Translations under genes and position numbers: made by a program | Notes under the pieces: generated by a model | The model's input: only the letters and a program-made list of their open reading frames with translations | Databases searched by the model: none | What the model was told of the DNA's origin: nothing | Source of the DNA: Pseudomonas denitrificans (nom. rej.) | GTDB taxonomy: Bacteria > Pseudomonadota > Gammaproteobacteria > Pseudomonadales > Pseudomonadaceae | DNA: 64,000 nucleotides | Reading direction: 5' to 3' | Assembly (NCBI RefSeq): GCF_008807415.1 | Contig: NZ_CP043626.1 | Location: 4,378,501 to 4,442,500, forward strand | Shown here: in pieces, positions 28,997 through 32,009 of the stretch | Layout of the letters: each line of letters begins with the position of its first letter | How positions within the stretch are numbered: position 1 is the first letter of the stretch

Positions 28997-29036
28997 TTGA
29001 CCGAGGTCAATTTTCCTACGGGCAATGCCGTTAGAT
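28997..29036 (+). promoter_or_regulatory. nrdD promoter with ANR/DNR-like box
   Basis: TTGAC-CGAG-GTCAA (28997-29010) is a perfect palindrome that matches the FNR/ANR-type operator TTGAT-N4-ATCAA with a symmetrical T-to-C change in each half. A -10-like TTAGAT follows at 29031-29036. If the box centre (29003.5) is at -41.5, transcription would begin near 29045, which fits the -10 element. This is the arrangement of a class II FNR-activated promoter, so oxygen-limited induction of nrdD is inferred. Confidence 0.7.
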
Positions 29037-29040
29037 TCCC

Positions 29041-29086
29041 ACAACATCTTGTTGTCTTGAATAACTCGGGACACAGCATGTTGTGG
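29041..29086 (+). promoter_or_regulatory. Pair of NrdR-like boxes before nrdD
   Basis: Two similar imperfect palindromes, ACAACATCTTGTTGT (29041-29055) and CACAGCATGTTGTG (29072-29085), have centres about 30.5 bases apart. This is close to three helical turns, as known for NrdR repressor sites before ribonucleotide reductase operons. The first overlaps the predicted transcription start, consistent with repression. The sequence symmetry is seen; NrdR binding is inferred. Confidence 0.65.
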
Positions 29087-29096
29087 AATTAAGCCA

Positions 29097-31114
29097 ATGC
29101 CCCTGACACGGACCGCCCCTCTTCCCGCCAGCCTGCGCAAGCGTAACGGCAGCTCCGCCGCCTTCGACCCGAGCAAGATCGAACGCGCCATCGCCGCCGC
29201 TGGCGAGGCCAGCGGCGAGTTCACCGCGCCCCACGCCGGAGAGCTGACCCGTCGCGTGCTGGCCCGCCTGCCGGCCCGGAACGACCTGGACGTGGAGCAG
29301 GTGCAGGACGTCGTCGAGCGCGCCCTGATGGAAGCCGGACACTACCCACCGCCCGCGCCTACATCGTCTACCGCGAACGCCACGGCCGCCTGCGCCGCGA
29401 GCGCAAGACACTGGTGGACGTCGCCGCGTCGATGAACGAATACCTGTCGCGGGAGGACTGGCGGGTACGCGCCAACGCCAACCAGGGCTATTCCCTGGGC
29501 GGGCTGATCCTCAATGTGTCCGGCAAGGTCACCGCCAACTACTGGCTGGACGAGGTGTACAGCGAAGGCATCGCCGTCGCCCACCGCGAAGCCGACCTGC
29601 ACATCCATGACCTCGACATGCTCGCCGGCTACTGCGCCGGCTGGTCGCTGCGAACCCTGCTCAGCGAAGGCCTGAACGGCGTGCCGGGGCGGGTCGAGGC
29701 CGGGCCGCCGAAGCACCTGTCCAGCGCGCTGGGGCAGATGGTCAACTTCCTCGGCACCCTGCAGAACGAATGGGCCGGGGCCCAGGCCTTCAGCTCCTTC
29801 GATACCTACCTGGCGCCCTACGTGCGCAACGACAGCCTGAGTTATCAACAGGTGCGCCAGGCGCTGCAGGAGTTCATCTACAACCTCAACGTGCCCTCGC
29901 GCTGGGGCACCCAGACGCCCTTCACCAACCTGACCTTCGACTGGGTCTGCCCGGAAGACCTGCGCGAGCAGATTCCCTACGTCGGCGGCGTGGAAATGCC
30001 CTTCGCCTATGGCGAACTGCAGGCCGAGATGGACCTGATCAACCGCGCCTACATCGAAGTGATGCAGGCCGGCGACGCCCACGGCCGGGTGTTCACCTTC
30101 CCGATCCCGACCTACAACATCACCCACGACTTCCCCTGGGACAGCGACAACGCCACGCGCCTCTTCGAGATGACCGCGCGCTATGGCCTGCCGTACTTCC
30201 AGAACTTCCTCAACTCGGACATGCAGCCCAACCAGGTGCGCTCCATGTGCTGCCGCCTGCAACTGGACGTGCGCGAGTTGCTCAAGCGCGGCAACGGCCT
30301 GTTCGGCTCGGCAGAGCAGACCGGTTCGCTGGGTGTGGTGACCATCAACTGCGCGCGCCTGGGCTACCGCCATCGCGGTGACGCAGCCGGCCTCTACGCT
30401 CAGCTCGACTACCTGCTGGAGCTGGCCTTCGACAGCCTGGAGGTCAAGCGCAAGGTCATCCAGCAGCACATGGATGCCGGGCTCTACCCCTACACCAAGC
30501 GCTACCTGGGCACCCTGCGCAACCACTTCTCCACCATCGGTGTGAACGGCCTGCACGAGATGCTGCGCAACTTCACCGACGACCGCGAAGGCCTGCACAC
30601 CGAGGTCGGTCGGCAGATGGCGCTGGCGCTGCTGGACCATGTGCGGGCGCGTCTGGTGCGCTTCCAGGAAGACAGCGGGCACCTCTACAACCTGGAAGCC
30701 ACGCCGGCCGAAGGCACCACCTACCGCTTCGCCCGTGAGGACCAGAAGCGCCACCCGGACATCCTCCAGGCCGGCACGCCGGACGCGCCCTACTACACCA
30801 ACTCCTCGCAGCTGCCGGTGGGCCTCACCGATGATCCGTTCGAGGCGCTGGAACTGCAGGACGCCCTGCAATGCAAATACACCGGCGGCACCGTGCTGCA
30901 CCTGTACATGGCCGAGCGCATCTCCAGCGCCGAGGCCTGCAAGACCCTGGTGCGCACCGCCCTCGGACGCTTCCGCCTGCCTTACCTGACGGTGACGCCG
31001 ACCTTCTCCATCTGCCCGGTACACGGCTACCTCGCCGGCGAACACGAGTTCTGTCCGCGCTGCGACGAAGCCGCGCTGCAGAAAGCCGCCAGCAGGAACT
31101 GCTGCAGCAGCTGA
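29097..31114 (+). pseudogene. nrdD: Anaerobic (class III) ribonucleotide reductase NrdD, catalytic part, one-base frameshift
   Basis: NrdD reduces ribonucleoside triphosphates without oxygen. The N-terminus (from ATG 29097) is an ATP-cone domain (LRKRNGSSAAFDPSKIERA). The frame is lost in a C run (CCC at 29345-29347); adding one C restores HYPTARAYIVYRERHG and joins the long downstream frame. That frame has the reductase core (VGGVEMPFAYGEL, SMCCRLQLDVREL, TINCARLGYRHRG) and a C-terminal zinc motif CPVHGYL...CPRC. Corrected length is about 672 residues. The protein stops soon after the zinc motif, so the glycyl-radical domain is not in this ORF but in the separate ORF at 31169. The frameshift may be real or a sequencing error. 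Confidence 0.87.
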
Positions 31115-31168
31115 GCCCCTTCTCTTTCATCCCCGAAAATTCATCCCCGCAAAAAAAGGAGCACCACG

Positions 31169-31315
31169 ATGACCGCGAACCAACTGCCCGAAAGCCAGCG
31201 CCAGCGCTGCGAGGTGTGGACCCGCGTGATGGGCTATCACCGCCCGGTGACGGCGTTCAACGCCGGCAAGCAATCCGAGCACCGCGAGCGCCGTCACTTC
31301 CGCGAGACGCGATGA
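31169..31315 (+). CDS. Separate glycyl-radical domain of anaerobic ribonucleotide reductase, 48 aa
   Basis: This small ORF has a strong ribosome site (AAGGAG, about six bases before ATG) and its stop overlaps the nrdG start by ATGA. The product contains CEVWTRVMGYHRP and AFNAGKQSEHRER, which match the glycyl-radical fingerprint (RVxGY and FNxGK) at the C-terminus of class III ribonucleotide reductases. The Gly of VMGY (about residue 21) would carry the radical after activation by NrdG. The ORF lies 54 bases after nrdD and is in the same frame, with only the nrdD TGA between. It probably pairs with NrdD as a separate subunit; a split by mutation is the alternative. Confidence 0.8.
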   Translation: MTANQLPESQRQRCEVWTRVMGYHRPVTAFNAGKQSEHRERRHFRETR

Positions 31316-31340
31316 GCAGTGCGCTCAGGGTCGGGGCCTG

Positions 31341-32009
31341 GTGCCCCTGACCACCCTCGACTACCCCGGCCTGCTCGCCTGCGTGCTGTTCTGCCAGGGC
31401 TGCGCGTGGCGCTGCCGCTATTGCCACAACCCGGAGCTGATCCCGCCGCGCGGCGAAGCGGAGATCCCCTGGGACGCCATTCTCGCCTTCCTCCGGCGAC
31501 GCCAGGGCCTGCTGCAGGCCGTGGTGTTCAGCGGCGGCGAGGCGACGCTGCAGAACACGCTACCGGAAGCCATGGCCAGCGTGCGCGAGATGGGTTTCCG
31601 CACCGGGCTGCACAGCGCCGGCATCCGCCCGGAGGCCTTCGCCCGCGCGCTGCCCCATGCCGACTGGATCGGCTTCGACGTGAAGGGGCTGGCCGAGGAC
31701 ATGGACGCTACAACCGGCGTGAAACGCAGCGGACAGGCCAACTGGCGCAGCCTGGAGCTGTTGCTGGAGAGCGGCGTGGGCCATGAGTGCCGCACCACCG
31801 TGCACTGGCAGCTGTTCGACCTGGAGCGCCTGCGTCAGCTGGCCACGCGGTTGCGCGGGATGGGTGTGGATAACTTCGTGGTGCAGTTGGCCCGCAGCGG
31901 CCGGCAGCTTGATCCCGGCCTGATCGCCACACCCGCGCCCCATGGCGCGCCCGATCTGTGGCGGGAGCTGCATGCGCTGTTCCCTTCATTCGAACTGCGC
32001 GACGTCTGA
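31341..32009 (+). CDS. nrdG: Anaerobic ribonucleotide reductase activating protein NrdG, 5' end frameshifted
   Basis: NrdG is the radical-SAM enzyme that makes the glycyl radical. The readable frame from GTG 31341 (VPLTTLDYPG) contains the cluster motif CAWRCRYC (CxxxCxxC) and GGEATLQ, and is otherwise intact. The likely natural start is ATG 31312, which overlaps the stop of the glycyl-domain ORF; from there MSSALRVG continues into the readable frame only if one G is added to the GGGG run at 31333-31336 (giving RVGGLVPLTT). Corrected length would be about 232 residues. As read, the first ten residues are lost and translation may restart at the GTG. Confidence 0.85.
   Translation: MPLTTLDYPGLLACVLFCQGCAWRCRYCHNPELIPPRGEAEIPWDAILAFLRRRQGLLQAVVFSGGEATLQNTLPEAMASVREMGFRTGLHSAGIRPEAFARALPHADWIGFDVKGLAEDMDATTGVKRSGQANWRSLELLLESGVGHECRTTVHWQLFDLERLRQLATRLRGMGVDNFVVQLARSGRQLDPGLIATPAPHGAPDLWRELHALFPSFELRDV

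Follow-up and report, generated by a model that had tools for sequence, protein, structure and literature searches.

Evidence for a two-piece anaerobic ribonucleotide reductase whose glycyl-radical subunit probably acts in trans and also occurs alone in plasmid and viral DNA

Small free glycyl-radical proteins are known as spare parts for pyruvate formate-lyase (PFL). YfiD/GrcA of Escherichia coli and Y06I of phage T4 restore the oxygen-cleaved enzyme; in the accessible portion of PMC8683613 these are the only two validated cases, and spare parts for other glycyl radical enzymes are named there only as a possibility. Among ribonucleotide reductases (RNRs), the class II enzyme of Pseudomonas aeruginosa is split into NrdJa and NrdJb, encoded by two consecutive open reading frames (ORFs) according to excerpts of PMC4009431, and NrdJb is not a radical-bearing part in the excerpts available from PMC9669993 and PMC5704485. 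The nrdD genes of cultured phages may also lie in pieces, through introns, inteins and homing endonucleases (PMC3653736, in its accessible part). Here we describe a class III (anaerobic) RNR locus in a 64,000-nucleotide stretch of Pseudomonas denitrificans (nom. rej.), positions 4,378,501 to 4,442,500 of contig NZ_CP043626.1. This stretch is called the window, and coordinates refer to it unless another record is named; numbers with L and G are our handles for loci and genomes. The glycyl-radical domain is missing from the nrdD gene of the window and lies on a 48-codon ORF of its own, the GRD, between nrdD and the activase gene nrdG.

The nrdD body (29097..31114, plus strand, as are the genes and motifs that follow) encodes an ATP-cone, the barrel and, at its end, the zinc motif CPVHGYLAGEHEFCPRC (31013..31063), whose C534, H537, C547 and C550 are invariant in a 22-row alignment. 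It stops at a TGA (31112..31114), 16 residues past the zinc motif. The GRD (31169..31315) starts with an ATG 54 bases past this stop and in the same frame, behind a ribosome site AAGGAG (31156..31161), and carries the motif RVMGYHRP (31223..31246) and, within N-A-G-K, Gly33 (31265..31267), the predicted radical glycine by homology. The start of nrdG (31312..32009), which encodes an NrdG2-type radical-SAM activase, lies inside the GRD stop, in an ATGA at 31312-31315. Read directly, these signals confirm the initial annotation, which had placed the radical segment on a separate ORF after the zinc motif and had put NrdD at about 672 residues, in agreement with 29097-31111. The separation of NrdD and GRD is real in the window.

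Profile searches drew the same boundary. Pfam NRDD (562 positions) divides exactly at the split, with positions 2-530 on the body (567.6 bits) and 531-562 on the small ORF (35.8 bits, E 5e-9). NF006126 gave 1028 bits on the body over positions 100-650 of 684, with the GRD matching its final part, and TIGR02495 (NrdG2) gave 204.5 bits on 31341-32006 against a cut-off of 131. At E up to 1, no Pfam family besides NRDD matched the window GRD, and no chain of a solved structure matched its 48-residue sequence. The active-site motif M-C-C-R (30245..30256; RSMCCR in the window), whose meaning we take from the accessible part of PMC4493059, is invariant in 22/22 aligned rows, fused and split alike; in NrdDh4 of RNRdb2, MCCR replaces SCCR.

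The window genome is a single-contig Pseudomonas near P. nitroreducens, and its GRD protein is identical to that of strain TX1. We found a GRD in 21 of 56 relatives, comprising 14 of 24 same-genus genomes (its own included), 4 from other genera of the family and 3 from other families of the order; the protein is identical in six of the 14 same-genus genomes. The initial annotation had supposed that the split might be normal in the genus, and so it proved: all 14 same-genus matches were split, and the arrangement was found far outside the genus as well. Close relatives whose NrdD runs through into the radical domain, which it had named as contrary evidence, did not appear. Twenty of the 21 matches were split, and the exception (G040) is a fused, distant NrdD of 37% identity.

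Wider samples gave the same picture. A scan of named-species genomes returned at least 588 relatives, and among the best 80, which were kept, 78 loci were split, one was fused (L107, from a Maricaulis metagenome-assembled genome) and one had no body in the stretch (L102). From 397 Pseudomonadota genomes drawn, 22 matched the GRD model, 15 of them at E < 1e-14 (14 split, G402 fused). Mapping of NRDD matches placed them in 50/299 genomes of the phylum, 41/338 of G402's class and 37/369 of the window's class. Pooled, the loci comprised 121 split and 14 fused cases, 13 GRDs without an adjacent body and 9 loci without a GRD by script. Two pairs among the 121 agree in gap, length and tail, one pair being the same record; split L133 and L180, with the divergent motif RSMGFIRP, lie outside the script motif and thus outside the 121, and fused L181 was missed likewise. 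Over the 121 split loci the gap from body to GRD ran from -26 to 415 nt (median 40), the relative frames 0/1/2 were 38/49/34, and the body stops were TGA in 89, TAA in 24 and TAG in 8. The GRD began with ATG in every one, had a Shine-Dalgarno (SD)-like motif in 115 and usually preceded nrdG.

The suspicion that the small ORF is under-annotated was borne out by its uneven treatment in RefSeq. Split genes occur on plasmids of Thiothrix, Azospira and Bradyrhizobium, in whose records the small ORF is named nrdD; a Cereibacter record, whose feature table describes itself as incomplete, lists no gene for the GRD ORF. Cupriavidus necator pHG1 encodes a 676-residue body (computed 76.19 kDa), a 66-residue GRD and nrdG. 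Siedow et al. reportedly gave a size of 76.2 kDa for the NrdD of H16 nrdDG in 1999, which would be the body without the GRD; for H16 NrdDG the published evidence, in the portions accessible, is genetics only. Seven split bodies (L034, L037, L055, L056, L071, L073, L089) are about 590 residues long, match from around position 130 of the query and apparently have no N-terminal ATP-cone.

Over 42 Pseudomonas-type GRD cores pN/pS was 0.082/0.588 = 0.14, which indicates purifying selection on the small ORF. The radical glycine was retained in 120/120 split, 13/13 unlinked and 14/14 fused cases and in 79/80 viral GRDs counted. A second mark is Cys14 (31208..31210 in the window). Among distinct cores, a cysteine within the seven residues before RVMGY was present in 82/82 split, 12/13 unlinked and 59/60 viral GRDs and in 4/14 fused NrdDs; the remaining 10 fused NrdDs have Thr at this position, and the four with Cys include the nested family L174-L176 discussed below. 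The tail of the body after the zinc motif has a median of 16 residues. A redox role for the tail cysteines as a general trait was discarded, with Cys in only 41/113 distinct tails.

Body and GRD can also be physically apart. In one genome (G293) the body lies about 9 kb away from the GRD and nrdG, and in three (G529, G672, G696) GRD and body are on different contigs. Five genomes carry an operon-linked GRD plus extra unlinked copies: G501 (L149), G682 (L151), G517 (L155), G986 (L157) and G447 (L159, L160). Genes of mobile DNA lie close to the spare copy in three of these six stretches, namely a recombinase (L149), RecT (L157) and a relaxase (L159); L151 gave weak phage-family matches only, and L155 and L160 no telling match. 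A second match in G599 (L153) resembles a fragment of a different NrdD where a contig begins, and it was not counted as a spare copy. On plasmid pAt1 of Allochromatium tepidum (L024, 2460-2645 of its stretch) the GRD is annotated nrdD, and a search of the whole record gave a single match, to the final part of the NRDD profile, and no body; its listed neighbours are a zinc-finger-containing protein and a DUF4942 protein.

GRDs stand alone in viral contigs too. Scanning these with the GRD alignment gave 169 stretches encoding a relative, and in the best 80, which were fetched, we found no NrdD body and no convincing nrdG. Forty-nine of these viral records, searched whole, had a single match each, covering only the last part of the NRDD profile, and no body. 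Matches to nrdG of 26-36 bits in L188-L190, L193, L194, L196, L198 and L232 were set aside: they are short other-frame ORFs over or against the GRD, picked up because the query, nrdG read from stop to stop, extends over GRD sequence. Genes for terminase (L191, L245, L256), portal (L198, L237), major head protein (L236), tape measure (L210), tail fibre (L226, L234), lysozyme (L249, L261), thymidylate synthase (ThyA) together with DNA polymerase A (L263), and DNA polymerase A (L239) neighbour the viral GRDs; several further neighbours had no match. A second scan, with the unlinked alphaproteobacterial-type GRD of L149 as query, returned 25 loci, of which one shares a contig with an earlier find. 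In 24 of them there was no body in the stretch, L277 being the exception, and the radical glycine was present in 27/27 viral matches of this set. Bacterial and viral copies share lineage marks, RQPVECWTRVMGYFRP being common to L154, L155 and viral L281 and L287, and FNIGKKSEYAER-type GRDs to L148, L149 and viral L269 and L271. Columns 110-157 of the phage family phrog_4132 (179 positions) were matched by 5/5 viral GRDs tested and by the window GRD.

A scan of viral contigs for the NrdD body gave only 4 loci, resting on two short patterns that divergent bodies could escape. A GRD was also present in L295 (on L277's contig) and L296; L294 stops at the contig end, and L297 has no GRD. The L296 contig has, in this order, a body, nrdG and a 115-residue ORF resembling a divergent GRD, and on the 314-kb contig of L297 the NrdD matches are spread over two long ORFs (1198 and 581 residues) that differ in frame, which may reflect an insertion in nrdD. 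In eight viral loci (L204, L212, L219, L237, L243, L246, L252, L267) the GRD ORF, whose start codon is provisional, has a Cys-rich stretch directly before the GRD (e.g. DCGGCACYTPGL), perhaps a small metal-binding module, and in L233 (1886-3007 of its stretch) a reverse-transcriptase family gene (phrog_1423) lies about 2 kb from the GRD.

Together these data support a two-piece class III RNR with a radical subunit that acts in trans and has mobile spare copies, a reading to which we assign a probability of about 0.78; its two-piece nature in itself is well supported. As a separate chain with its own ribosome site, encodable away from nrdD and with additional copies in plasmid, phage-like and viral DNA, the GRD can act in trans, and the unlinked and mobile copies strongly suggest that it does. 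Starting from the observed split, conservation, location in trans and viral copies, we infer docking, activation by NrdG, exchange and a benefit to phages as follows. NrdD would provide the catalytic barrel and zinc platform, the separate protein of about 48 residues would bear the glycyl radical, and the radical-SAM enzyme NrdG would generate it. The small subunit would dock at the site of the C-terminal domain of an ordinary NrdD, with Gly33 next to the active-site cysteine. Oxygen would cut the chain at the radical glycine, and by analogy with YfiD and Y06I the cheap 5-8 kDa subunit might then be replaced rather than the 76 kDa enzyme. Phages may supply a fresh subunit and so keep the host enzyme working, and host dNTP synthesis going, in anaerobic or fluctuating infection. 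Whether the subunit is mobile, interchangeable and shared by bacteria, phages and plasmids, with phages restarting or sustaining host dNTP synthesis by delivering it alone to a radical-less host enzyme, we judge to be an even question.

Several observations weigh against this proposal. The system is known here from genes and one structural model. The fold of that model agrees with known NrdD structures (T4, T. maritima, P. copri, S. thermophilus), but it was computed as a single read-through chain from rows that included fused ones, which partly predetermines the docking, and the MCCR/finger-loop stretch (275-301) has pLDDT < 50. None of the viral records is at least 90% complete, the viral GRD records carry no host assignment, an SD-like motif precedes only 58/80 viral GRDs, and in one of them (L213, near 817-933 of its stretch) Ala replaces the radical glycine (N-A-A-K). 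In 50,697 cultured-phage records we found no free GRD, only weak matches of less than 60% identity, nearly all annotated as full NrdD. Finally, in the window itself both nrdD and nrdG are interrupted by a single-base frame break, near 29344 and near 31332 respectively.

Those two breaks may be sequencing errors or decay, and might suggest that the split itself stems from an assembly error or a decaying pseudogene in the window genome. They are absent from three relatives compared and leave the split point untouched, the small ORF is conserved, and the same split occurs in relatives such as L028 whose nrdD body is an intact single ORF; a local frameshift as the cause of the split was rejected on this ground, and error or decay as the origin of the split is highly improbable. 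We regard it as similarly far-fetched that body and GRD become a single protein through read-through or recoding of the stop, with selenocysteine at the TGA. The window frame is indeed open from the stop to the GRD save for the TGA, but the frames differ in 83/121 loci, the stop may be TGA, TAA or TAG, and in four genomes the GRD is separated from the body. Since frame, gap and stop codon vary across split loci, recoding is excluded as a general mechanism.

In a stronger competitor the GRD, though separate, is permanent: it assembles once with NrdD and is never exchanged, the split being neutral history. Its position just 3' of nrdD in the 121 loci, usually before nrdG, suits a fixed stoichiometry, and the existence of re-fused forms means that separateness is not always required. 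Lone viral and plasmid copies and the second unlinked copies in five genomes, however, make little sense if a free subunit cannot enter the enzyme, and we consider this account possible but rather unlikely. The lone GRDs of viral and plasmid DNA raise the likelihood of a radical unit that acts in trans and may be replaced beyond what the initial annotation could know. Phage GRDs might instead interfere, by occupying NrdD or NrdG or as decoys. They come without other parts of the enzyme, and L213 has lost its radical glycine, yet the glycine is kept in all other viral GRDs of both sets (79/80 and 27/27), the viral core pN/pS is 0.26, though with pS near saturation, and some viral GRDs adjoin genes for ThyA and DNA polymerase, a setting in which a supply of dNTPs would be useful. 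Interference is accordingly doubtful, more so than a permanent subunit.

The history of the split was followed on a tree of bodies (28 rows, thinned from 122). It demands at least 4 changes between the fused and split states (4-5 over bootstraps), which rejects the idea that fusion was lost just once; a quick preliminary tree with 35 rows, in which long branches came together, needed 3 changes. Two groups of fused NrdDs fall outside or apart from the split part of the tree. The only well supported nesting places the fused family L174-L176 next to a split row (support 95/93); this family retains the leader and Cys of the free GRD and is therefore most likely a re-fusion. L107 and L182 are fused as well and fall among the split rows with less support; each may be a re-fusion or a survivor. 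From these placements, the fused relatives would comprise an older state and, probably, re-fusions.

Upstream of nrdD, a candidate Anr/Dnr (FNR-type) box TTGACCGAGGTCAA at 28997..29010 is the single match to TTGAY-N4-RTCAA in the whole window; this pattern we take to be the Anr/Dnr consensus, and the function is presumed from it. The same or a similar box lies 5' in the five relatives inspected (L028, L029, L030, L040, L046). Two inverted repeats (29041-29055 and 29071-29084) match a pattern that we assume to be the NrdR box, and are candidates only.

In the open-access literature we found no description of this kind of split NrdD or of phage-borne NrdD-type GRDs; prior notice is possible in subscription papers (H16, Pseudomonas, 1999), which lie outside that scope. 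The interpretation given in the initial annotation is, as a whole, partly supported. If the proposal holds, an enzyme central to anaerobic life is in two pieces in a large proteobacterial group while databases label each piece as the enzyme, and recombinant work using the annotated large chain alone would be without the radical. The locus would also offer a natural two-chain system for studies of radical loading and oxygen repair, and the question of spare parts beyond PFL, left open in the accessible part of PMC8683613, would become directly testable. The lone viral radical tips suggest that the part can be supplied or replaced independently of the enzyme.

Compared with known systems, the window locus shares with class III NrdD/NrdG (PF13597; NCBIfam NF006126/PRK08270) the barrel, the zinc platform, the glycyl-radical motif and an adjacent NrdG2-type activase. 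It differs in the separate ORF of the radical domain (121 loci; unlinked in four genomes), the extra leader and Cys14 of the GRD, and the body tail; because the radical domain is outside the chain of the barrel, we call it a split variant and not an ordinary NrdD. NrdJa/NrdJb resemble it in two-ORF coding and differ in class and in the role of NrdJb. Split nrdD genes of cultured phages are interrupted complete genes, whereas here the radical domain is carried alone. The phage family phrog_4132 had previously no assigned function, which the GRDs would provide, although its profile is longer than most GRDs here. With YfiD and Y06I the GRD shares the form of a small free glycyl-radical protein that is also phage-borne. 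Membership in the PFL-type YfiD family was rejected, since NRDD alone matched and Pfam Gly_radical did not at E up to 1; the GRD would work like these proteins. The difference lies in the partner: PFL owns a radical domain and the bacterial NrdD has none, which makes the GRD an obligatory part of its enzyme.
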